The notes beneath the pieces were generated by a model that was not told the DNA's origin, ran no database searches, and worked only from the letters and a program-made list of their open reading frames with translations. From the NCBI RefSeq assembly GCF_025961575.1, contig NZ_JAOQNX010000005.1, positions 124,001 through 188,000 on the forward strand: a DNA stretch of 64,000 bases, in the 5' to 3' direction. The position numbers were made by a program, and so were the translations under genes. This DNA comes from Rhodoblastus acidophilus (GTDB lineage: Bacteria; Pseudomonadota; Alphaproteobacteria; Rhizobiales; Beijerinckiaceae). Shown here piece by piece: positions 8,583 through 44,701 of this stretch. Numbering within the stretch: the first letter of the stretch is position 1; each line of letters opens with the position of its first letter.

Positions 8583-11405
8583 TCAGGGACATGCGCTGGC
8601 GAGGAGATGGCTTTTCGCGTGGTGCGGAACGTCATTTTCGGGCTTTGCGCGAGAAAACAGCGCCGCGAATTGCGCGAACGGCTCGGCCGGCATGGCGCGG
8701 GCGAACAAATAGCCCTGGTAGACGCGACAGCCCCGGTCCGCCAGAAAGGCGCGCTGCTCCTCGGTCTCCACGCCCTCGGCGATGACCGAGAGCCCGAGCG
8801 TCTCGCCGAGCGCAATGATCGTCTCGGCGATGGCGGCGTCGTTGGGGTCGGAGATGACGTCCCTGACAAAGCTCTTGTCGATCTTGAGCTGGTCGATGGG
8901 AAGCCGCTTCAGATAGGACAGCGACGAATATCCGGTGCCGAAATCGTCGAGCGAAAAGCGGATGCCGAGATCGCGCAGCACGCTCATCTTGGCGATGACC
9001 TCTTCGATCCTGGAGATTTCAAAACTTTCGGTGACCTCCAGCTTGAGGAGGCGCGGATCGGCGCCGGTTCGCTCCACCGCTGTTCTGACGCGTTCGACAA
9101 AGCCGTGATGATGCAGCTGCACGCCGCTGACGTTGACCGCAAGCGTCAAATGCGCCAGCGCCGGAGACTTCGCCCATTCGACCAGCTGGCGGCAGGCGGA
9201 TTCGAGCACGGCGTCTCCGAGCGGGATCATCAGCCCCGAGTTTTCGGCGACCTCGACGACCTCGACCGGCGAGGGCGCGTCGCGATCCGCGCGCGGCCAA
9301 CGCAACAACGCCTCCGCGCCGACGAGCCGTCCCTCGTCGTCGACCTGCGGCTGGTAATGGAGGAGGATGTTGTTCCGGGCGATGTCCTCCCTGAGCGCCG
9401 CTTCGATGGCGGCGCGCGCCTCGATCAGCTTCTGCATCGCCGGGTCGAAGAAGCGCACGGCGTTGCGTCCCGACGTCTTCGCGTCATACATGGCCATATC
9501 CGCCCATTTGAGCAGATCGTCCATGCTTTGCCCGTCGTCGTGGAACAGGGCGACGCCAATGCTCGCCGTGCAGCGGAAGCTGTGACCGTCGAGATTTTGC
9601 GGTTCGGCAAGGCTGGCGATGATGGTCTCGGCGATCGCTTCCGCCTGAAGCGCCGCGCCGGCGATGTCGGATGCGCCCAGATCGGTCAGGAGCACCACGA
9701 ATTCGTCGCCGCCGAAACGCGAGACGGTGTCGCCATCGCTCACGCAACGGAGCAGGCGCGCCGCCGATTGTTTCAGCAGCAGGTCGCCCTTGTGGTGGCC
9801 GAGCGTGTCGTTCAGCCTCTTGAACTGGTCGAGGTCGACGAACAGAAGCGCCGCATGGGTCCTCAGGTCCCGGCACTGCGCCATGGCCTGGCGCGCGCGC
9901 TCGACCAGGATGGTTCGATTGGGCAGGCCGGTCAGCTGGTCATAGAACGCCAGCGACCGGATTTTCGCCTCGGCTTCCTTTCGTTCGGACAGGTCGTAAT
10001 AGGTCTTGACGTAATGCGAGTGGCCGCCGGTCTCGTCCTGCACGGCCGAAACCGTCAACCATCGCGGGATCGCCCCGCCGCTTCTCGTTCGCAGCCAGAC
10101 TTCGCCTTGCCATCGGCCCGAGAACTCGCACGCCTCGATAATTTCCGCGTAAAGGCTCGTGGTGTCGCTTTGCGAATTGAACGAAGCGGTCGATTGGCCG
10201 ACGAGATCGTCGGGGGCATAGCCGGTCAACTCGCTGAAGGTCCTGTTGGCCCTGAGAATCCTGTGACGGGCGTCGGTGACGACCATGCCCTCCTGCGACT
10301 CGAAGGCCGTTGCGGCGATGCGAAGATCCGAATTGGTTTCCTTGAGGGCGCGGGTCTTGCGGCGCAAATCTTCTTCCAGCGCCTTGCGCAACGCGATTTC
10401 TTCGGAAAGGGCGGTGTTGTGTTGCGACAATTCGTGACGGCGGCGATCGGATTCAGCGAAATCGCTTTTCAATTGCGCGGCGCGCCGGCGCTGTCGCTCA
10501 AAGCCGATCGCCATCAGGAACAAGGCGGCGGCAAAGGCGGCGAGATAGAGCGCATAGGCCGGGGGCGCGCCGCCGCCATAGGCCGCCGCCGCCGAGGTGA
10601 GCGTCACCAGCGACAGGGGCGCGCCGTTGATCGGCGTCCGCAGCGCCAGCATGTCCTCGACAGACTTGCGGTCGGAGACAGCGGGCGTGAGCCGGTTCGC
10701 GGGCAGTTCCGCCAGGGACCTTTCGACAAGTTCGAAATTCGCCTTCGCCTCGCGCGGCGACAGCGCGTGGCCGCCGTCTCCGATCAGCAGGAATTCGTGA
10801 TAGCCGCCCGCGCTGTCCTCCGCTTCGATCAGCAGTTTTGAGAGAACTTTCAGGTCGGCCGTTGTCGTGATCGCGCCGACGAGAGTGTTCTTAAAGAAAA
10901 CCGGCGCCACGACCTCGATGGTCCAGTTCCGCGCGTTGATCTGCGGCCTCTGGACGGTCTGGGGGATCTCGACGATCTCGGGCGTCGCGCCATCGCCGAC
11001 AGAGGCGACGAAAGCCCCGTCGATCCTGGCGAAGCCGATGTGGCGGAGGAAGGCGTCGCCGCGCAAGGAGATGCGCTCGATGGTCTTCTGGAAGCGCTGT
11101 TCGATGAAGCTGACGTTGGCGTTCAAACCGTAGCGCGGCGACATGCCCAGCGCTTCATTGGTGAGGTAGTCTTCGATCTCGTCGCTGCGGGCAAGCTGCG
11201 TCGCGAGCTTTTCCTGCTCGAACAGGAAATCCTCGACGACGGCGGCGCGGCGCGCGCTGTCGGCGAGCAGGCGCGCGTCGGTGGCGGCGCGCAACTGGAC
11301 CTGGGTCGAATAGAGCGTCCAGGCCAGAACCAGAACGAACAGCAGAAACCCGCTCGCCATCGCCAGCGGCCAGTGCAGGAGCAGGCTCTGCCGGTTCGGG
11401 ATCAA
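8583..11405 (-). CDS. Membrane PAS-GGDEF-EAL protein
   Basis: 940-residue cyclic-di-GMP enzyme, paralogous to the protein at 5172-7499. Two transmembrane helices (MASGFLLFVLVLAWTLYS and YALYLAAFAAALFLMAIGF) enclose a periplasmic sensor sharing the LGMSxxYGL pattern with its neighbour. A coiled coil then leads to a PAS domain (SEGM-like segment ESQEGMVVTDARHRILRANR, ending in a PAC motif), an intact GGDEF (RFGGDEFVVLL) and an intact EAL domain (GAEALLRW, VTESFEI, SLDDFGTGYSSL, IAEGVETEEQ). The RxxD inhibitory site is absent. I prefer a TTG start at 11405, which has GGAGG nine bases upstream; a TTG at 11426 is also in frame. It is separated from the solute-binding gene by 187 bases and may have its own promoter. 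Confidence 0.92.
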   Translation of the reverse strand: MIPNRQSLLLHWPLAMASGFLLFVLVLAWTLYSTQVQLRAATDARLLADSARRAAVVEDFLFEQEKLATQLARSDEIEDYLTNEALGMSPRYGLNANVSFIEQRFQKTIERISLRGDAFLRHIGFARIDGAFVASVGDGATPEIVEIPQTVQRPQINARNWTIEVVAPVFFKNTLVGAITTTADLKVLSKLLIEAEDSAGGYHEFLLIGDGGHALSPREAKANFELVERSLAELPANRLTPAVSDRKSVEDMLALRTPINGAPLSLVTLTSAAAAYGGGAPPAYALYLAAFAAALFLMAIGFERQRRRAAQLKSDFAESDRRRHELSQHNTALSEEIALRKALEEDLRRKTRALKETNSDLRIAATAFESQEGMVVTDARHRILRANRTFSELTGYAPDDLVGQSTASFNSQSDTTSLYAEIIEACEFSGRWQGEVWLRTRSGGAIPRWLTVSAVQDETGGHSHYVKTYYDLSERKEAEAKIRSLAFYDQLTGLPNRTILVERARQAMAQCRDLRTHAALLFVDLDQFKRLNDTLGHHKGDLLLKQSAARLLRCVSDGDTVSRFGGDEFVVLLTDLGASDIAGAALQAEAIAETIIASLAEPQNLDGHSFRCTASIGVALFHDDGQSMDDLLKWADMAMYDAKTSGRNAVRFFDPAMQKLIEARAAIEAALREDIARNNILLHYQPQVDDEGRLVGAEALLRWPRADRDAPSPVEVVEVAENSGLMIPLGDAVLESACRQLVEWAKSPALAHLTLAVNVSGVQLHHHGFVERVRTAVERTGADPRLLKLEVTESFEISRIEEVIAKMSVLRDLGIRFSLDDFGTGYSSLSYLKRLPIDQLKIDKSFVRDVISDPNDAAIAETIIALGETLGLSVIAEGVETEEQRAFLADRGCRVYQGYLFARAMPAEPFAQFAALFSRAKPENDVPHHAKSHLLASACP

Positions 11406-11644
11406 GCGCTCACACCTCCGAGACAAGGAAGCGTGATCGTCGGAGGAGGCTCACCCTGAAAGTCGCAGCACATTCATTCAATCCACCAGGACCGGCAATG
11501 CATTCAGATTCATTTGCGCGCGCAGACTCGCGCCATCCGCCAGCGTTCTTTTGGCGAGCGCTGTCGCCAAAATACTCCTGGCTGCACTGCAACTTTAGAT
11601 GGAAAGAATTACGGAATGGTTGTGAGGCGGTGAGATGCGCCGTC

Positions 11645-12877
11645 CTATCGCCAGTCCAGCGCCTGACGGGCCATGTCCGCCTTGCGCGCGATCATTTTTT
11701 CCGCGAGCGCCGCGCCGCCGCCATGCGCGGCGACCAGCCGGACGATCGCGGCGTTGGGAATGCGCGTCACCAAGGCGACGGCTTCGCGGAGCTCGGTGGG
11801 GCTCATGTCGCCGAACAGTTTTTTGGCGTGCGGATTGTCCGGGTCGGCGCGCAGGGTTTCGAGTTCCGGCGTGGCGGGGCCGAACGCCTTGCCCTTGGGA
11901 TCGCCTTGCGCCCGGAAGGCGAGGGCGCCGCCGACGTCGAGCGTGATCGTCACGCCCGCCGCCACGCCCTGGTTGTCGCCCAGGAATCCGGCGGCGTCCC
12001 AGTTGGCGGTCCAGGCGTGGACGCCGAACCAGCGCCGCGCCTGCCTGCGCTCGTCGGCGTCGAGTTCGGCGATGGTTTTTTTCTCGAGATCGACGAATTC
12101 GGTGGCGACCTCGCAAGGGTCGGCTGATCGCAGATAGGTCAGCGTCGGCGCGCCCGCGAGCTGGTAGAATTTCGCCGCCAGAACTTCGTTGCGCGCATGC
12201 GCCGGCGATTCCAGCGTCTTGACGTAGAAACGCCGGCCCTCGGCGTCGGCGAAGACGCCGCCGGGATTGCTGCCGAGCCGTCCCCCCACCTTTTGCAGGC
12301 GCGCGGCGTCGATCGAGTCGATGTCGACCAGCGGCGCCGTCCGGCGCACCAGCGCCAGTTGCGCCGGGGTTTCGATGGCGCCTTTTCGCGCGCTGCGAAT
12401 TTCCTTGATCGCCTGTTTCGGCTCCATGCCAAGTTCGACCAGCAGCCGCGCCGCGATCATGCCGGCGCGGCCGAGCCCCCCCTTGCAATGCAGGACGACA
12501 TCGCCGCCGTCGCGCAACAAAGCGCGGATGTCGCGGCCGTGGCTGCGCCAGGCCCATTCAAAGGCGGCGTCGGGGGTGGAAAAATCGGGGATCGGCAGAT
12601 GTTTCCAGTCGAGACCTTTTTCGAGGACCTCGGCGCCGAGATTGGGGACTTTGAGCGACAGGAGTTCGGCCGGCTCGACCAGGGTCACGACCATTCGCGC
12701 GCCGGATGCGGCGATGACGTCGAGATCGGCGCCGAGGTCGCGCGCCCATGCGCCGGAATGCGCGGCGCGGTCGTGCTTGCCGGGACAGAAGGTGACGCCG
12801 ATGCGCCCCAGCTCCGGCCCGGCGCGCACATGGGCGATTTGCAGCGGATGGGTCTGGCTGGTGCGCGGCTTGGTCAC
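11645..12877 (-). CDS. KAP/CDKN3-like phosphatase fused to an atypical kinase-like domain
   Basis: 410-residue cytoplasmic protein with two parts. Residues about 20-180 match the cyclin-dependent-kinase-inhibitor-3 (KAP) branch of dual-specificity phosphatases: GRIGVTFCPGKHD, PIPDFSTPD (likely general acid), catalytic loop HCKGGLGRAG (Cys-x5-Arg complete) and IRSARKGAIETPAQ. Residues about 195-410 form a second domain: GGRLGSNPGGVFAD resembles a glycine-rich nucleotide loop, GRRFYVK supplies a lysine, HARNEVLAAKFYQLAG an acidic helix, HAWTANWDAAGFLGDN a catalytic-loop-like segment and TLDVGGALAFRAQG a metal-loop-like segment. This is the layout of HipA-like or other atypical kinases; I infer the fold from motif order only. 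Start is GTG. It stands alone between c-di-GMP and cytochrome genes. Confidence 0.75.
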   Translation of the reverse strand: MTKPRTSQTHPLQIAHVRAGPELGRIGVTFCPGKHDRAAHSGAWARDLGADLDVIAASGARMVVTLVEPAELLSLKVPNLGAEVLEKGLDWKHLPIPDFSTPDAAFEWAWRSHGRDIRALLRDGGDVVLHCKGGLGRAGMIAARLLVELGMEPKQAIKEIRSARKGAIETPAQLALVRRTAPLVDIDSIDAARLQKVGGRLGSNPGGVFADAEGRRFYVKTLESPAHARNEVLAAKFYQLAGAPTLTYLRSADPCEVATEFVDLEKKTIAELDADERRQARRWFGVHAWTANWDAAGFLGDNQGVAAGVTITLDVGGALAFRAQGDPKGKAFGPATPELETLRADPDNPHAKKLFGDMSPTELREAVALVTRIPNAAIVRLVAAHGGGAALAEKMIARKADMARQALDWR

Positions 12878-12942: not shown

Positions 12943-12974
12943 AAAAAGATCGCCCCGCGCGAGGCGGGGCGATC
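12943..12974 (-). terminator. Rho-independent terminator after the cytochrome-porin gene
   Basis: Perfect 11-bp stem GATCGCCCCGC (12948-12958) / GCGGGGCGATC (12964-12974) with a 5-base loop. Read on the minus strand it is followed by TTTTT (12947-12943). It lies 24 bases past the stop codon of the 12999-14453 gene and ends that operon. Confidence 0.9.
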
Positions 12975-12998: not shown

Positions 12999-14453
12999 TC
13001 ACCACATGTTCCAGGCGTAAAGCATCAGCGTGTTGTTGTCGCTGGCCTTACGGCCGAAGCCGTCGATATTGGTCGTGCCGCCGTCGAACCGGTTGTAGAT
13101 GGTATAGGACGCGCCGATGCGGGTGTTGTACCAGGGCCAGATTTTTGGGCCGCCGCGCATGAACGGCAGATAGGACACGTCGAAAATCCAGCCGGCCGAA
13201 TTGGGCGAGAAGTTCACGTTATTGTTGAAGGCGATCGCGTCTGGGCTTCCCGTATACTGGAAATAGGCGATTTCGAACGCATATTTGTGGTCATAGACAT
13301 ATTCGGTGCTCAGCTGCAGCGCGCGCAGGTAATTGGTCTGGTTGGCCGTGAAGCCGGCGGCGAGGCTGGCGTCGAGATTCTGGCGCTCGAAAATATAGTT
13401 GGCGCGCAGGGTCACGGCATGCTCGTCGGTGAGCCACTGGTACTGCGAATCGAAGCCGAGGTCGGTCACCTTGTCCGTGCCGAAGCCGAACACGCGGTTG
13501 GGCAGGATGTTGGCCGACATGCCGTAAGTGCCGATCATGAAAGCGTGCTCGCCCCAGACCGGCTCCGCGGCGAGGCGCCAATAGGGCGCGAGGCCGCTGA
13601 TCGTATAGCCGAGGGAGGGCGGGGATTCGCCCATGGTGGTCTGCACGCGCGGCGGCGGCGAGCCATAGGCGCTGACTTCGCCGTAAAACGTGTTGTTGAC
13701 GAAGACGTAAGCGCCGGCGCCCAAAGCCTGGACCGGCCCCATGCTCTCGATCATGGTTGCGGCCGCGGGGGTGGGGGCGAAGGCGGAGGTGAGGAAGGGA
13801 TAGGCCCAGACCGGCGTGGTGTTCCAGGGGTCCTGCATGGTCGGGCGGTTATTGGCGGTGATGCCCCAGAGCACATCCGTATTGTCGAGGGTGAACTGGC
13901 CGGTGTAGCGGACGTCGGCATTGTCCATGCCGAAGTTGCGGGTGAAGCCGTTGCTGTAGCTGAACTGGATGAAGGCGCCGAGGTTTCCGTAGATCTGGCC
14001 GCCGTAATAGATGCTGAGCTGCTGGGCGAGGTCGCCGTAATTGTTCGTGCCATTGTAGCCGCCGGCCTGGCCGCCGGTGACGATGTTGCTGGGATCGGTC
14101 GGCGGCGCGTAGAGGCTCCCGGGCGGCCCGTTATAGCCGCTGTTCAGATGGGTGAAGGTCGCCTGCCACATGAAGGCGATCGGCAGCGGCGGATCGAGCA
14201 GGGCGTTTTCCGTTCCGCTCGCGCCATAGGGGCCGCCGCCGCGCGAAATATAGCCGTTCAGCTTGAAGCGCCGTCCGAACGGGGTGAGCTGCAGGAAGGC
14301 CGTGTGGCAGGTCGAGCAGGTTTGGCCGGTCTGGCGGGCGAAGGAGGGCAGGGCGTCCGCCTTCTCGACCCCGCCGAGGGAAACGACGAGGGCGAGCGGC
14401 GCGGCCAGCGCTGCGGCGCTGCGGAGCTTGGCGATTGCGACCTTCGAGACCAT
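12999..14453 (-). CDS. Cyc2-like monohaem cytochrome c-outer-membrane porin fusion
   Basis: 484-residue exported protein. A signal peptide ending near KADA is followed at once by LPSFARQTGQTCSTCHTAF and LTPFGRRFKLNGY: one CxxCH haem site in the setting known for Cyc2, the outer-membrane iron oxidase of iron-oxidising bacteria, whose family has an N-terminal haem domain plugging a beta-barrel. The remaining roughly 400 residues are rich in alternating aromatic strands with Gly/Asn turns, and the chain ends in AWNMW, an aromatic C-terminus typical of barrel insertion. Length equals that expected for Cyc2 (about 480). It is the last gene of an operon after two dihaem cytochromes and before a strong terminator. 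Iron oxidation is inferred; other extracellular donors, or a relative with a different role, remain possible. Confidence 0.75.
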   Translation of the reverse strand: MVSKVAIAKLRSAAALAAPLALVVSLGGVEKADALPSFARQTGQTCSTCHTAFLQLTPFGRRFKLNGYISRGGGPYGASGTENALLDPPLPIAFMWQATFTHLNSGYNGPPGSLYAPPTDPSNIVTGGQAGGYNGTNNYGDLAQQLSIYYGGQIYGNLGAFIQFSYSNGFTRNFGMDNADVRYTGQFTLDNTDVLWGITANNRPTMQDPWNTTPVWAYPFLTSAFAPTPAAATMIESMGPVQALGAGAYVFVNNTFYGEVSAYGSPPPRVQTTMGESPPSLGYTISGLAPYWRLAAEPVWGEHAFMIGTYGMSANILPNRVFGFGTDKVTDLGFDSQYQWLTDEHAVTLRANYIFERQNLDASLAAGFTANQTNYLRALQLSTEYVYDHKYAFEIAYFQYTGSPDAIAFNNNVNFSPNSAGWIFDVSYLPFMRGGPKIWPWYNTRIGASYTIYNRFDGGTTNIDGFGRKASDNNTLMLYAWNMW

Positions 14454-14548
14454 CCGATCCTTCCCCCTCGATCTCACCTGCGGCGATGGTTTCGCCGTCT
14501 CTGTCCCGAATGCGGCGGGACCTCCGCAGTCACGCTCATGCCCCTGGG

Positions 14549-15145
14549 TCATTCGACATAGCTCAGATAGGACGCGAGCGCGTCGATCTCTTGGGGCGAA
14601 AGGAATTTCGCCACTTTCGGCATGGGATGCGCCGCCTGGCGATAGCCCTCGTTCCACTGGTCGAGCTGCCGCTTGACGTAGATGTAGGAGAGGCCGCCGA
14701 GCCGGGGGATATGGCGCACGCCTTCCGCGTTCGGCCCGTGGCAGACGACGCAGGCGACGACGTTCTGGCTGGGAATCCCGTTCTCGAAAATGTCCCGTCC
14801 GGTCGCGACCAGGGCCTTGTCGCCGTCGTCGGCGGGGCGGGGCGCCTGAGCGGCGAAATATTGGGAGAAGCCGGTGATCAGATCGGGAGTCAGATTGGCC
14901 GAGGCGTTGTGCATGTATTTGCGCGCATAGGGATTGTCGCGCACATGGGCCATGAAGGACTTGAGCTGGTTTTCGATATATTGCGGCCTCTGTCCGGCGA
15001 TGCGCGGCGCGACCATGAAACCCTGGCCGGAGACGCCGTGGCAGAAGGTGCAGTTGCGGATGGGCAGATCGTCCTCCGCGCGCAGCGGGCCGGTCGAAGC
15101 CAGCGTGATCGCCAGGGCCGCAAGATGAAGAGCGAATCGGTTCAT
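14549..15145 (-). CDS. Dihaem cytochrome c, c4 type (B)
   Basis: 198-residue periplasmic electron carrier. Signal peptide up to PLRAED, then two class-I cytochrome domains, each with one haem motif: CTFCH near residue 33 and CVVCH near residue 130. Each domain carries the c4-family pattern after the haem (PRIAGQRPQYIENQL and PRLGGLSYIYVKRQLDQW) and a candidate Met ligand (KYMHN; HPMPKVAKFLSPQEIDALASYL). It lies between another c4-type gene (53-base gap) and the Cyc2-like gene (95-base gap), all in the same direction. In Acidithiobacillus the dihaem c4 protein Cyc1 takes electrons from Cyc2, so a shuttle role for this protein is a reasonable inference. Confidence 0.9.
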   Translation of the reverse strand: MNRFALHLAALAITLASTGPLRAEDDLPIRNCTFCHGVSGQGFMVAPRIAGQRPQYIENQLKSFMAHVRDNPYARKYMHNASANLTPDLITGFSQYFAAQAPRPADDGDKALVATGRDIFENGIPSQNVVACVVCHGPNAEGVRHIPRLGGLSYIYVKRQLDQWNEGYRQAAHPMPKVAKFLSPQEIDALASYLSYVE

Positions 15146-15198
15146 GATCCAAGGTCTCGCGCTTGAACGGTCAATTCCGAAGTGTCAGAGGAACCGGC

Positions 15199-15843
15199 TC
15201 ACTTGAGCGAGCTGACATAGGCGGCGACGGCGGAAATCTGCGCCGGGCTCAGGTTGCGCGCCACCGGCGCCATGATCCCTGAGGAATCCTCGCCGCGCTG
15301 TCCGCGCTCCCGGCCGAAATTGGTCAGGGTCTTGGTCACGTACCAGTAGAGCTGTCCGGCGAGCCGCGGAATCTGCCGGGTTCCGCGCGCGTCCGGACCA
15401 TGGCAGACGGCGCAGGCGGGAATATTGGCGTCGGGAAGCCCCGTTTCGAAAATGCGCTTGCCCAAGGCGGCGCCCTCGGTCGGCCCGCCGCCATGGGGCG
15501 GCGCGTTCAGGCCGCGAAGATAGTCCGCGAGCGGGCGGATCATGCCTGGGCTGACGGCGGTCACCACATTCTGCATGATCGGGTTCACGCGGCGGCCTTC
15601 CTTGAAGGCGTGCAACTGGTTCTCAATGTATTGCGGCTGCTGTCCGGCGAGGCGCGGCATGGTGAAATAGCCGCGAAAGCCCTGTCCGGAGGCCCCGTGG
15701 CAGATCAGGCAATATTCGGCTTTGCTTTCAATGGATTGTCGGGAGATGGGTCCCTTGCCCGCGTCGGCCGCCTGGCCGACGCCGCACAGCGCGAGCGTGA
15801 AGGCGGCGGATTGCACGCCCAATTTGAACCCGTTGGCCCTCAT
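15199..15843 (-). CDS. Dihaem cytochrome c, c4 type (A)
   Basis: 214-residue periplasmic cytochrome, first gene of the operon that ends with the Cyc2-like protein. Signal peptide (FTLALCGVGQAADA), then CLICH near residue 45 and CAVCH near residue 145, each followed by the c4 pattern (PRLAGQQPQYIENQLHAF and PRLAGQLYWYVTKTL) and a Met-containing loop (NPIMQNVV; GIMAPVARNLS). The ATG at 15843 is chosen because GGGGGG lies upstream; an ATG at 15861 has no ribosome site. Paralogous to the genes at 14549 and 16496, which points to local duplication. Divergent from the third copy across a 652-base region that should hold both promoters. Confidence 0.9.
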   Translation of the reverse strand: MRANGFKLGVQSAAFTLALCGVGQAADAGKGPISRQSIESKAEYCLICHGASGQGFRGYFTMPRLAGQQPQYIENQLHAFKEGRRVNPIMQNVVTAVSPGMIRPLADYLRGLNAPPHGGGPTEGAALGKRIFETGLPDANIPACAVCHGPDARGTRQIPRLAGQLYWYVTKTLTNFGRERGQRGEDSSGIMAPVARNLSPAQISAVAAYVSSLK

Positions 15844-16495
15844 ACCGCGCCCCCCGCGCATTTATGGATTGTGATTTCGGTTGTTTTTGCTGGTCCGCCA
15901 GCTGGCGTATTCTTGTTTTTCTCGATCGGACGCAAAGGAAGCAAATACGAACCATAACCTGAGCGATTCGTAAACGGCGTCGCGGCCGATGACAACTGGC
16001 AGGTGGTGTATTGGCGCGCGCTTTTTACTATTTTGATCGATGCGTTGCAAATATGCACCATGAGTCAAGTGTTTAAACTCTTTCCTGGCGTCTGAAGTCT
16101 GAGGGGAATACGGGGTGTGTTTTGTTCAAGCCCTTGTTGTGGAAATAAAATTTTTTGGCATTCACTTGAGGAAGATGGTTTTTTGCGCTGCAGCATGTCT
16201 ATTTTGGCGCTTGTTCCTCTTGGTCGCCTCGTCTTGCCAAGCTGACGGCGGCGCTGTTACAAATCGCTCGGTTGTTGTCGCGATTCCTCAAAAGGAATGC
16301 GGCGGCGCCCAACAAGCCTGAAAACGCAAAGCGCCCTTCGGTCGACAGTCAATCGGGCGTCCGGTCACAGAACAATCAGCCAGGCTTTGCGTCACAGGCA
16401 AGCTTCCGCAGGGGAATCGAGCCGTCATTTCACCGATGGCGCCAATGCGCAGGTTCGTTTTCCTTTGGTGCGAAGAAAGTCGTTCGGGGGGAGAG
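15844..16495. other. Divergent intergenic region between dihaem cytochrome genes
   Basis: 652 bases without a convincing gene, noticeably AT-richer than the surroundings (runs such as TTTTTTGG near 16151). It must contain the promoters of both flanking cytochrome operons. A half FNR-like site (TTTTGATCGATG near 16030) lacks its second arm. No tRNA, terminator or clear full operator was seen. A short ORF at 16115-16321 is not convincing. Confidence 0.6.
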
Positions 16496-17149
16496 ATGGG
16501 AGTCTTCGGTCGCGGGTCGCTGTCTTTGGCGGCTTCTTTCATTGTTCTTTTCGGCGTGGGCGCGGTCCGCGCCGAGAACGGCAAGCCCGCGGCGGTGTCT
16601 CCGCAGGCGGTTCAGGCCAAAACCGCCTTCTGCAAGACCTGTCACGGACAGTCCGGGCAGGGTTTTCTTGGCGTCGAAGCTATTCCGCGGCTCGCGGGAC
16701 AACAGCCCGAGTATATCGCCTATGAACTGACCGCGCTGAAGGAGCATCGCCGCATCGACCCGTTCATGAGCGGGGTCGCCGGCGGCCTGTCGCCGGAGAT
16801 GATCCAGGCGCTGAGCACGCAGTTCAAGGATTTCAATCCGCCGCCGGCTTCGCCGGGGCCGCAGGCGCTGGTCGCCGAGGGCAAGAAAATCTATGAGGAA
16901 GGCGTTCCCAGCGCCGAGGTCCCGCCCTGTTCCGCCTGCCACGGCGAAGACGCCAAGGGCGCCGGCGAGTTTCCGCGCCTTGCCGGCCAGCTTCAGGAAT
17001 ATATGGTCCGCGAACTCGAGGAATGGGACGCCATTCGCGGGCTGGACGCGAAAAATCCCGACAATGCCGCGATCATGTCGCCGATCACCCACAAGCTCAC
17101 CAAGGACCAGAAGAACGCCGTCGCCGCCTATCTCAGCAATCTCAAATAG
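16496..17149 (+). CDS. Dihaem cytochrome c, c4 type (C)
   Basis: 217-residue periplasmic cytochrome on the plus strand, divergent from the Cyc2-like operon. Signal peptide (SLAASFIVLFGVGAVRAE), then CKTCH near residue 46 and CSACH near residue 143, each with the c4 signature (PRLAGQQPEYIAYELTAL and PRLAGQLQEYMVRELEEW) and a Met loop (DPFMSGVAGGLSPEM; AIMSPITHKLT). The ATG at 16496 follows a strong GGGGGGAGAG ribosome site; an earlier in-frame ATG at 16436 would disturb the signal peptide. It precedes the HiPIP-like gene by 179 bases in the same direction and may share transcription with it. Three similar dihaem proteins within 3 kb are unusual. Confidence 0.9.
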   Translation: MGVFGRGSLSLAASFIVLFGVGAVRAENGKPAAVSPQAVQAKTAFCKTCHGQSGQGFLGVEAIPRLAGQQPEYIAYELTALKEHRRIDPFMSGVAGGLSPEMIQALSTQFKDFNPPPASPGPQALVAEGKKIYEEGVPSAEVPPCSACHGEDAKGAGEFPRLAGQLQEYMVRELEEWDAIRGLDAKNPDNAAIMSPITHKLTKDQKNAVAAYLSNLK

Positions 17150-17328
17150 GACCGGCGCCGATTCCCGCATGCGCGGGTTCGATAGCCGCCATGCGCAGGC
17201 GGCGGGCGAATGTTGCACTGCATCAATTTGGATGCGCCGCGCTTCAGCTAAGCTTTCCGAATCATGGGAAGGCGTGCGCGCTTCCGCTCGTCAGCGTGGA
17301 GCGAAGGCGCGCGACGGCGGAGGCTTTC

Positions 17329-17616
17329 ATGAACAGCATCCATCCATCCAAAGGCGATCCATCCAAGGGCGTTTCGCGCCGTCTGCTGCTCACCGGCGGC
17401 GTGGCCGCGGGTTCCGCCGGTCTGCTCGCAGCGACCGGCGCCCAGGCGCAGGTCAAGGTTCCCAAATCCGCCGTGCGCTTCAGTTCGGCGGCCACGATCG
17501 CCGGCCACACCTGCGGCGGCTGCAAATCGTTTCAGGCGCCGTCCGCTTGCCTGTTCGTCGAGGGCAAGACCTCCCCGGACTGCTCCTGCTGGATCTGGCG
17601 CGGCAAGACCGCCTGA
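17329..17616 (+). CDS. Tat-exported high-potential iron-sulfur protein (HiPIP)-like
   Basis: 95-residue protein. The N-terminus has a Tat-type signal (SRRLLLTGGVAAGSAGLLAA ending in AQA), as expected for a protein folded around a cofactor before export. The mature part carries CGGCKSFQAPSAC, then ten residues to a DCSCWIW end: the Cys-x2-Cys-x8-Cys spacing and the C-terminal Cys near Trp match short HiPIPs, which hold one 4Fe-4S cluster and carry electrons in the periplasm to a reaction centre or oxidase. An extra Cys (DCSC) gives a choice for the fourth ligand and is slightly unusual. It lies next to c4 and c2 cytochromes, fitting an electron-transfer island. Ribosome site GGCGGAGG. HiPIP-like Iro proteins occur in iron oxidisers. 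Confidence 0.85.
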   Translation: MNSIHPSKGDPSKGVSRRLLLTGGVAAGSAGLLAATGAQAQVKVPKSAVRFSSAATIAGHTCGGCKSFQAPSACLFVEGKTSPDCSCWIWRGKTA

Positions 17617-17667
17617 GACTCCCTCGCTTCTGCACTCGCGGGTTTTTGCGGACGCTGGTTTCTTGCG

Positions 17668-17694
17668 GCGCCGGCCGCGGTCTGTGGCCGGCGC
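17668..17694. terminator. GC-rich hairpin between convergent HiPIP and cytochrome c2 genes
   Basis: GCGCCGGCC (17668-17676) pairs with GGCCGGCGC (17686-17694), with further pairing into the loop. On the plus strand it is followed by TCTTGTT. It lies in the 100-base gap between convergent genes and could serve both, better for the plus-strand gene. Confidence 0.55.
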
Positions 17695-17716
17695 TCTTGT
17701 TCGGGGAAGCCGACGC

Positions 17717-18115
17717 TTATCTGGAGCCGTCTTCCTTGAACGAGCTTTCATAGGCCCAGATGTCGTCCCGGTCCTTTTCGTTGGGCAGACCGGGGAAGGT
17801 CATCTTGGTGCCGGGAATCTTCTTCTGCGGCGCCGCGATATACTCCTTGAAGGTCGCCTCGTCCCAGGTGATCCCCGAATTCTTGTTGGCGTCGGAATAA
17901 TTGAAGCCCGGATATGTGCCGGCCTTGCGGCCCTTGATGCCGTTCAGCACGGGGCCGACGGCGTTCTTGGCGTCGGGGCCGATGTTGTGGCAGGCGTGGC
18001 ACTTCTGGAAAATCTTGGCGCCCGCTTCCGGGTCGCCGGGATCGCCGACGCCCGCCCAGGCGGCGCTGGCGAACAGTCCAAACGCGGCAAAAGCCGCAAT
18101 CGAGTCGAGTCTCAT
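17717..18115 (-). CDS. cycA: Cytochrome c2 (soluble class I cytochrome c)
   Basis: 132-residue periplasmic cytochrome. Signal peptide ends at AAWAGVGDP; the mature chain has the haem motif KCHACHNIGPDAKNAVGP, the conserved LNGIKGRKAGTYPGFNYSDAN block of mitochondrial-type/c2 cytochromes and the sixth-ligand Met in GTKMTFPGL. It carries electrons between the bc1 complex and a reaction centre or terminal oxidase. I chose the ATG at 18115, which has AGGGATGG upstream; the ATG at 18127 has its only possible site immediately adjacent. It lies downstream of ccmI, a cytochrome c maturation gene, in the same direction (162-base gap), and converges on the HiPIP-like gene. The symbol is by family; cytC or cyt2 would be equally valid. 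Confidence 0.92.
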   Translation of the reverse strand: MRLDSIAAFAAFGLFASAAWAGVGDPGDPEAGAKIFQKCHACHNIGPDAKNAVGPVLNGIKGRKAGTYPGFNYSDANKNSGITWDEATFKEYIAAPQKKIPGTKMTFPGLPNEKDRDDIWAYESSFKEDGSR

Positions 18116-18277: not shown

Positions 18278-19102
18278 TCACTTGGATTCGAGCGAGTCCA
18301 GGGTCGAGAGTTGCTGCGTAATGGCCGCATTCAATCTTGAATTCTTGGGTATTTCGCTGGCGAGCGCCGTCCAGATCGCCCGCGCCCGCGCCGTGTCGCC
18401 GTCCTGGGCCGCGCCCAATCCGATGTAAAAGCGCGCTTCCGCAAGATTCGGGTTCAGGGCCAGGGCCCGCTCGAAATGTTCATTGGCCTCGAGCGTGACC
18501 ATTCCCTCGCGCGCGTCGATCATGGCCTCGCCGATCGCTTCATGGCGCTGCGCCGTTTCGCCGAGCAGGCGCAAGGCTTCCGTCCGCGCGCGAACTGCGT
18601 CGTCCCACCGGTTCAAGTTTTGGTAGAGCGGGGCGAGCTGCTCATAGGCCTGGCCATCCTCGGGGCGCGCGGCCAGATGTTTTTCGAGCCGCGCGACCGC
18701 TTGCGCGGGCGCTTCCGTCGGCTGCGCCGGATTCAGGCGCGCGAACAGCGGTTGGTCCGGCAGGGCGGGGTTTCCGACATGGGCGTAGAGGCCGAACGCG
18801 ACGGCGGGAATGGCGAGAGCGGCGAGACAGGCGGCGGCCCAGCGGGCGCCCTTGGACGGCGTCGGCGCCGGGGCGTCGCCTTCGCCCGCGAGCAGGCGGC
18901 GCGCGGCCAGCGTGCGCGCCGCTTCGGCGCCGCCGGGATCGATCAGGCCGCGCCGCAGATCCGCGTCGAGTTCGGCGATCTGCGCGCGGAAAAAGGCGAC
19001 CTCCGCCTCGCGCTCGCGGCTGGGGCGGGCGGCGCGCGCCAGCGGCCAGAGCGCGCTCAGCATGGCGAGGCCGGTCAAGAGTCCGAGGATGATCCAGATC
19101 AT
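18278..19102 (-). CDS. ccmI: Cytochrome c biogenesis protein CcmI
   Basis: 274-residue membrane protein that helps deliver apocytochrome c to the haem ligation machinery. The N-terminus is a transmembrane helix (WIILGLLTGLAMLSALWPL), then a cytoplasmic coiled segment (REREAEVAFFRAQIAELDAD...GLID), which is the CcmI signature, a second helix (WAAACLAALAIPAVAFGLY) and a periplasmic TPR region with HLAARPEDGQAYEQLAPLYQ and HFERALALNPNLAEARFYIG. Length is in the shorter part of the family range. It sits apart from ccmF/H genes, which are not in the window, and upstream of cytochrome c2. It follows the che operon in the same direction, 65 bases after the last che-linked gene. Confidence 0.88.
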   Translation of the reverse strand: MIWIILGLLTGLAMLSALWPLARAARPSREREAEVAFFRAQIAELDADLRRGLIDPGGAEAARTLAARRLLAGEGDAPAPTPSKGARWAAACLAALAIPAVAFGLYAHVGNPALPDQPLFARLNPAQPTEAPAQAVARLEKHLAARPEDGQAYEQLAPLYQNLNRWDDAVRARTEALRLLGETAQRHEAIGEAMIDAREGMVTLEANEHFERALALNPNLAEARFYIGLGAAQDGDTARARAIWTALASEIPKNSRLNAAITQQLSTLDSLESK

Positions 19103-44167: not shown

Positions 44168-44425
44168 ATGGCTGCAACGGATATTGTTCGCGCGCGCATC
44201 GACCACGCGACCAAGGAGCGCGCCGCCGAAGCCCTGGCGGAAATGGGTTTGTCTATTTCGGACGCGATCCGGTTGCTGATGATGCGGATCGCCGACGAGC
44301 GGCGCTTGCCGTTTGAAGTCAAAGCGCCCAATGCGGCGACGCGCAGGGCCATGGCGGAGCTCGAGAGCGGGAAGGGCCATAGGTCCGAAAACGCCGAAGC
44401 TCTTTTCAAAGACCTTGGCATTTGA
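44168..44425 (+). CDS. RelB/DinJ-family antitoxin
   Basis: 85-residue ribbon-helix-helix protein. IVRARIDHATKERAAEALAEMG is the DNA-binding strand-helix, LSISDAIRLLMMRIADERRLPFEVK the second helix and linker, and the C-terminus (SENAEALFKDLGI) should wrap the toxin. Ribosome site GGAGG. The toxin gene follows after 3 bases. Palindromes in the promoter fit autorepression. Confidence 0.93.
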   Translation: MAATDIVRARIDHATKERAAEALAEMGLSISDAIRLLMMRIADERRLPFEVKAPNAATRRAMAELESGKGHRSENAEALFKDLGI

Positions 44426-44428
44426 GCG

Positions 44429-44701
44429 GTGCTGACGCCCGTCTGGGCCGCCCGTTTCCGCCGCGACGTGAAATGGGCGGAAAAACGCGGCAAGGATATG
44501 GTCAAACTTAAGGACGCATTGATCCTATTGATTGAACAGCAGCCTTTGCCGCCGAGTTACGCCGATCATCCCCTGAAGGGCGATTGGAAGGGCTACCGGG
44601 ATATTCATCTGGAGCCGGACTGGCTCTTGCTCTACCGCGTCGAAGGCTCCGAACTGCACCTCGCCAGGACAGGAAGCCATTCCGACCTGTTCAAGGAGTG
44701 A
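44429..44701 (+). CDS. YafQ-type (RelE superfamily) mRNA interferase toxin
   Basis: 90-residue toxin. WAARFRRDVKWAEKRGKDMVKL, the YADHPLKGDWKGYRDIHLEPDW block with the catalytic His residues, LLLYRVEGSELHLARTGSHSDLF: all match YafQ, which cleaves mRNA on the ribosome. Start is GTG. Partner of the RelB/DinJ-type antitoxin immediately upstream. The ORF is intact. Confidence 0.93.
   Translation: MLTPVWAARFRRDVKWAEKRGKDMVKLKDALILLIEQQPLPPSYADHPLKGDWKGYRDIHLEPDWLLLYRVEGSELHLARTGSHSDLFKE

Follow-up and report, generated by a model that had tools for sequence, protein, structure and literature searches.

Photoferrotrophy in purple bacteria is known through the Pio and Fox proteins, and Cyc2, a cytochrome fused to an outer-membrane porin, is associated with acidophiles, Zetaproteobacteria, Gallionellaceae and Chlorobium. 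This study concerns a stretch of 64,000 nucleotides (the window) from the genome of the purple phototroph Rhodoblastus acidophilus (4.9 Mb in 80 contigs), in which a cyc2 gene forms an island with genes for three dihaem c4-type cytochromes, a protein resembling high-potential iron-sulfur proteins (HiPIPs) and a cytochrome c2. Sequence comparison identifies the three c4 proteins as a recurring orthologous triad; they are not duplicates of the lone c4 that accompanies cyc2 elsewhere. The triad would represent the conserved partner set of one alphaproteobacterial Cyc2 line, sister loci of which have an Iro-like HiPIP instead. The new element is the recurrence of three distinct orthologous c4 subfamilies beside cyc2.

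The island resembles the Cyc2-Cyc1 system of Acidithiobacillus ferrooxidans (rus operon) in placing a monohaem cytochrome-porin beside a dihaem c4, but no rusticyanin, Cup or cox genes were seen in it and three c4 subfamilies are present rather than one, a comparison made without a named A. ferrooxidans chromosomal sequence. The rus-operon-like locus used for comparison, L199, comes from a genome (G698) under the rusticyanin cut-off, and the assignment of cup, cox and cta genes in it was visual. This cut-off was passed by one of 369 genomes (G644), and the stretches fetched from G644 held no cyc2. With regard to Cluster 1 Cyc2 proteins (Zetaproteobacteria, Gallionellaceae, Chlorobium), one of three clusters defined in PMC7029218, the haem-domain motif is the same, but the window protein and L199 lie across a branch with a Shimodaira-Hasegawa-like approximate likelihood ratio (SH-aLRT) support of 100 from G417 and from four f59 rows, which we infer to be Zetaproteobacteria (their genomes are small, and one or more cyc2 copies occur in many members), in a tree without named cluster references.

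The Cyc2 proteins of Acetobacteraceae presented in PMC10715153 are likewise alphaproteobacterial, with adjacent c-type cytochromes, phototrophic kin and a HiPIP as proposed carrier; cyc2 is described there beside a mono- or dihaem cytochrome, whereas the window comes from another order and has three c4 orthologues. As outlined in PMC10304953, PioABC of Rhodopseudomonas palustris also combines a porin and a cytochrome in a purple phototroph, with a HiPIP as carrier to the reaction centre, but PioA is decahaem, whereas the window protein is a single polypeptide that comprises the porin and one haem. Cyc2 homologues of Hyphomicrobiales were already noted in a similarity network (PMC10654088). No publication on Rhodoblastus with Cyc2 was found by a search that left most subscription papers, preprints and supplements beyond its reach, and the literature examined, the scope of which excluded supplementary trees, yielded no description of the triad.

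The Cyc2 protein and its relatives

The original prediction, made from the DNA alone, proposed an exported product of 484 residues with one CxxCH in a PSFARQT context and a terminal tryptophan. Translation gave exactly this protein, with a signal-peptide-like N-terminus, and its identity as Cyc2 was supported by a published sequence screen and by a predicted barrel. The screen combines a length of at least 365 residues, a CXXCH and the motif AXPXFAR[Q/K][T/Y], for a protein described as a 16-strand porin (PMC8406198); the window protein has 484 residues, CSTCH and ALPSFARQT. An AlphaFold model built on a 77-row alignment showed 16 strands of at least six residues, with a predicted local distance difference test score of 85 and a predicted template modelling score of 0.83. 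A structure search with this model returned 50 listed matches with Z scores from 20.6 to 21.9, mostly OmpC/OmpF-type porins aligned over about 300 residues. Among the structures, 5o78 (Z 21.5) is the entry reported in PMC10654088 as closest to AfCyc2. By sequence, the protein matched neither Pfam nor NCBIfam (E ≤ 1), nor any entry of the PDB (E ≤ 10); a PDB search with A3 gave two insignificant matches (E 0.11 and 0.72). No second cyc2 copy was found in the 4.9-Mb genome, the next match having an E value of 0.57 (9.6 bits).

Among the 598 pattern matches listed in named genomes, at least 593 encode relatives, of which 80 were kept. At E ≤ 1e-5, Cyc2 matches were found in 88 of the 398 genomes of a phylum sample. 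Matches also occurred in nine plasmid records, among them records of Methylocystis, Caballeronia, Acidiphilium and Paraburkholderia. One plasmid filed as Acidithiobacillus ferrooxidans (L055, CP084173.1) has a cyc2 region laid out as in pACRY03 of Acidiphilium cryptum, which would reflect a recent transfer or a mixed culture.

The Cyc2 tree, a quick tree with long branches, comprised 114 rows after removal of L055, L056, L057 and L087 (duplicates), L117 (partial), and L127 and L171 (without the pattern). The window protein fell in a clade of 46 rows (SH-aLRT 93), the named rows of which are alphaproteobacterial except L097 ('Proteobacteria bacterium'). A c4 or HiPIP gene lies within 4 kb of cyc2 in 41 of these 46 cases (three c4 genes in 17, HiPIP alone in 16) and in 25 of the 68 cases outside the clade, counts for which the profiles were built from the same set and may miss distant types, and in which short contigs hide neighbours. 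Three c4 genes together with a HiPIP gene within 4 kb occur in the window and G001 only; in M. palsarum (L064), the HiPIP gene and two c4 genes lie within that distance and the third c4 at 4.8 kb.

Two HiPIP-type cyc2 loci are adjoined by a shared gene set (L016 5243-7632 and L023 6148-8569) for a CHRD-domain protein, a small monohaem cytochrome and a protein of 478-486 residues with a single CxxCH; in a family check that covered the L016 copies, this last protein matched no Pfam family at E ≤ 0.001. This set may constitute another Cyc2-linked module.

Three c4 subfamilies beside cyc2

The three c4-type dihaem cytochromes named in the original prediction are present, and the analysis refined them to the triad. 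In a quick tree of 83 c4 proteins they fell in three subfamilies, C4a, C4b and C4c: C4b and C4c (37 rows, support 98) were set against a clade of 26 single c4s from cyc2 loci (97), and C4a lay outside both (100). The single c4s beside cyc2 in beta-, gamma- and some alphaproteobacterial loci are not orthologous to the triad of the window. Each triad protein comprises two CxxCH domains, detected as Cytochrom_C stretches, and belongs to the c4 group. One candidate distal methionine per domain is invariant in C4a and C4c, as is that of the second domain in C4b. The PDB comparison, which covered the C4b and C4a profiles (A5 and A6), returned solved c4s, with 1h1o ahead at 146 and 138 bits and the runner-up at 103 and 97; we take 1h1o to be the A. 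ferrooxidans c4, in keeping with the structure paper cited as reference 73 by Keffer et al.

The full triad, with one C4a, one C4b and one C4c, was found near cyc2 at 18 loci (the window, L015, L017, L019, L020, L021, L049, L062, L063, L064, L069, L081, L085, L088, L090, L094, L097 and L104), and L089 has two members at a locus that stops at a contig end. The genera include Rhodoblastus, Bradyrhizobium, Methylocapsa, Methylocystis, Hyphomicrobium and further relatives. Triad members scored 293-361 bits with their own profiles, and the single c4s of other cyc2 loci at most 160 bits with all three. As the profiles were made from triad loci, the high scores are partly given by construction; the one-of-each pattern is not. 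Most of the 18 loci were fetched via cyc2, so that nearness to cyc2 is also given by construction, and the unbiased evidence comes from searches of the whole genome and of the order with the C4b profile.

In the source genome, this profile at E ≤ 1e-20 matched three places only, all within 3 kb of cyc2. Chance clustering was rejected on this ground and because the same set recurs at 18 loci. In the order sample at E ≤ 1e-50, 4 of 397 genomes matched, with double matches only in the source genome (G000), G1083 (L088) and G1105 (L062), all three already rows of the profile; in the latter two, cyc2 likewise lies beside the triad. In a set of 60 genomes, the source and 59 relatives, cyc2 was found in 11 and the triad, by the C4b profile, in 6, all of them cyc2-positive with the triad beside cyc2, and 49 genomes had neither. 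The association (6 of 11 with cyc2, 0 of 49 without) has a Fisher p of 9e-6, not corrected for shared descent. In the five other cyc2 genomes (G002, G004, G011, G026 and G033), the gene for an Iro-like HiPIP is located about 1 kb or less from cyc2. The best C4b-profile match in a genome without cyc2 (136 bits, G009) is a single c4 that belongs to neither C4a, C4b nor C4c.

Distances among the Cyc2 proteins correlate with those among the c4s (r 0.54-0.74), and the two trees have several terminal clades in common, with deep branching poorly supported. An identical history of cyc2 and the triad is only partly shown: the six Rhodoblastus loci united in the Cyc2 tree (100/100) are not recovered as a supported group in the tree of concatenated c4s.

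Layout of the island and neighbouring genes

The c4b, c4a and cyc2 genes share a strand, separated by 53 bp (c4b-c4a) and 95 bp (c4a-cyc2), and are divergent from the genes for C4c and the HiPIP-like protein, which are followed by cytochrome c2 and ccmI on the minus strand. The intergenic stretch between C4b and C4c is the presumed control region, and the C4c start is probably the inner ATG. The hairpin beyond cyc2 likely marks the end of a c4b-c4a-cyc2 transcription unit; the pattern occurs at 8 sites in the region as against a mean of 6.2 in shuffles, and is only suggestive. In a neighbourhood comparison, ccmI adjoins the island also in G001, G003, G006 and G010.

Features of the island and other genes of the window (positions in the window)
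Feature	Position	Strand	Basis or remark
PAS-GGDEF-EAL protein (947 aa)	8583-11426	-	939-aa homologue at matching place in G001
Phosphatase-like protein (410 aa)	11645-12877	-	PF22785, CDKN3-like; 87% conserved in G001
Terminator-like hairpin just 3' of cyc2	12948-12974	-	11 pairs, 9 G-C, T5 tail
cyc2, exported fused cytochrome-porin (484 aa)	12999-14453	-	translation, motif, AlphaFold, fold searches, homologues, tree
Single haem-binding CSTCH, residues 46-50	14304-14318	-	followed by FLQL
Cyc2 signature ALPSFARQT, residues 34-42	14328-14354	-	match to motif defined in PMC8406198
C4a, dihaem c4-type cytochrome (198 aa)	14549-15145	-	two Cytochrom_C stretches
C4b, dihaem c4-type cytochrome (220 aa)	15199-15861	-	start may be 15843
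Divergent intergenic stretch between C4b and C4c, AT-richer	15862-16495	.	GC 0.51 (15862-16435) vs 0.66 in the window
C4c, dihaem c4-type cytochrome (217 aa from ATG 16496)	16496-17149	+	longest open reading frame 16436-17149
HiPIP-like protein (95 aa), exported by the twin-arginine translocation (Tat) route	17329-17616	+	four invariant Cys and one extra Cys
Cytochrome c2/c550 (132 aa)	17717-18115	-	best solved match 1co6, cytochrome c2
ccmI, cytochrome c maturation	18278-19102	-	TIGR03142
RelB-type antitoxin	44168-44425	+	PF04221
YafQ toxin	44429-44701	+	PF15738

The cytochrome c2 of the original prediction proved to be of the c2/c550 type. The Tat-exported HiPIP-like protein stood as to its presence, with C62, C65, C74, C87 (cluster cysteines) and R17-R18 (Tat-type pair) invariant in an 11-row alignment, but it reached no curated family cut-off: no Pfam family matched at E ≤ 1, and the NCBIfam Iro model NF041615 matched only weakly, with 23.2 bits against a cut-off of 100. 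Its role is the least secure in the island, since the window copy is one of four HiPIP-like proteins of the source genome, is divergent and falls under the family cut-offs. The three further HiPIP-like Tat proteins lie on contigs C3 (L205 4837-5553) and C1 (L204 5388-5702), two of them in tandem. All four share CWIW, and none of the three tested (L204, the second of L205 and the window copy) matched Pfam HIPIP.

Beyond the hairpin lies a phosphatase-like gene, followed by that of a PAS-GGDEF-EAL protein, for which a cyclic di-GMP link to surface life is conceivable. A RelB-YafQ antitoxin-toxin pair is encoded elsewhere in the window.

Direction, donor and phototrophic context

The host had been proposed to be possibly phototrophic with proteins different from Pio; the first point is confirmed and the second supported. 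The source genome contains pufL, pufM and a tetrahaem PufC (PF02276, 357 bits), together with four matches over the cut-off for ribulose-1,5-bisphosphate carboxylase/oxygenase (RuBisCO), among which two are strong, at 462 and 418 bits. MtrB_PioB (PF11854) was found in 0 of 14 genomes, including the source, in a search whose control matched only below the cut-off, in Caulobacter.

From sequence and modelling, we consider it probable that the island encodes a Cyc2-based module for extracellular electron uptake in a Rhodoblastus-type purple phototroph, whatever the donor. Cyc2 would be located in the outer membrane, as a predicted 16-strand porin with a small N-terminal monohaem c domain, and a soluble donor, Fe(II) or reduced humic matter, would be oxidised at its haem, as inferred from characterised Cyc2 proteins. 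Electrons would then pass to C4a, C4b and C4c, whose conserved linkage suggests that they could act jointly as a periplasmic wire, and from these to cytochrome c2 and/or the HiPIP. Judging from gene content, these carriers could in the light deliver electrons to the reaction centre with its PufC or, in darkness, to an oxidase.

Several observations weigh against this reading. Keffer et al. warn that Cyc2 function is uncertain away from characterised members (PMC8406198), and the Cyc2 comparison set is without any biochemically tested Cyc2. The window HiPIP is unlike the HiPIPs beside cyc2 elsewhere, two of which exceed the Pfam cut-off, and in G963 an intermediate c4 (217-219 bits) stands on an 18-kb contig that lacks cyc2. 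The module is also untied to phototrophy: of 17 further genomes or records, 4 contained PF00124 (L064, L085, L090 and L104), six genus-mates with cyc2 lack PF00124, and three phototrophic genus-mates lack cyc2. A phototrophy-specific function is thus unsupported, and given this distribution the module is best understood as a general point of entry for electrons, to which a phototroph can couple its reaction centre.

A further point of this kind is the proline of PXL, a part of the Cyc2 consensus after CXXCH that lies outside the inclusion screen of PMC8406198: in the window protein it is replaced by leucine (FLQL). Of 121 profile matches, duplicates included, 103 fitted the pattern, and these have Pro in 98 cases, Leu in 2 (the window and G001), Ala in 2 and Phe in 1. 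L061 and L065, among the 18 non-fitting matches left out of this count, also have Leu, with CxxCH kept and YAR replacing FAR. The leucine may shift the stability or the potential of the haem. It was rejected as a mark of phototrophs, as L061 and L065 share it without PF00124.

As regards the donor, either Fe(II) or reduced humic matter could plausibly serve, and analogy with tested Cyc2 proteins would favour Fe(II). A split within the uptake explanation is that the same machinery would have reduced humic or dissolved organic matter as its natural donor, as a supplement to other metabolism, which we regard as possible without expecting it to be the case. The record titles or sources of relatives from bogs, palsas and peat (L062, L063, L068, L070 and L049, 'Alpine Peat Bogs') are in line with it, but bogs may also supply Fe(II). 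Expression of cyc2 is reported to increase with dissolved organic matter in Methylobacter (PMC12211021), whereas Fe(II) is oxidised by all three Cyc2 representatives for which biochemical evidence exists (PMC8406198).

It is very unlikely that the module runs outward, for electron disposal or Fe(III) reduction. Cyc2/Cyc1 isoforms have been linked to ferric iron reduction in acidithiobacilli (PMC10715153), but PufC, RuBisCO and a c2-type carrier fit uptake, and a search confined to the island revealed no component leading from quinol to c4, such as one of the CymA type.

Comparison with G001 bears on whether the haem site still works. The Cyc2 proteins of the window and G001 are 67% identical and the c4s about 90%; within Cyc2, 36 of 40 positions are identical in the haem domain, as against 138 of the 199 strand positions and 120 of the 203 positions of loops and turns, which is as expected of a surface-exposed porin, with the haem domain best kept and the loops least. 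A decaying or repurposed Cyc2 with a haem site that no longer works, suggested by the loss of the near-universal proline in the window and G001, is accordingly very unlikely, given this conservation, the intact frame, the c4 partners at 90% identity and the same leucine in L061 and L065 beside an intact CxxCH, albeit with YAR for FAR.

If the uptake reading holds, the Cyc2 island would give a phototroph that has PufC and RuBisCO a further route beside Pio and Fox, one that can be put to the test. We tentatively suggest that this route was assembled independently, with photoferrotrophy or phototrophic uptake proceeding through Cyc2 and a three-part c4 relay to the PufC centre without Pio, and that the same module could serve oxidation in the dark in Hyphomicrobiales that are not phototrophic, among them methanotroph relatives and Bradyrhizobium; this is a possibility rather than our expectation. 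The c4 triad provides a marker for this Cyc2 line and raises the question of why a monohaem porin should have three dihaem partners. Its occurrence in Bradyrhizobium, Methylocapsa and Methylocystis would connect bacteria common in wetlands and soils with the uptake of electrons from iron or humic matter.

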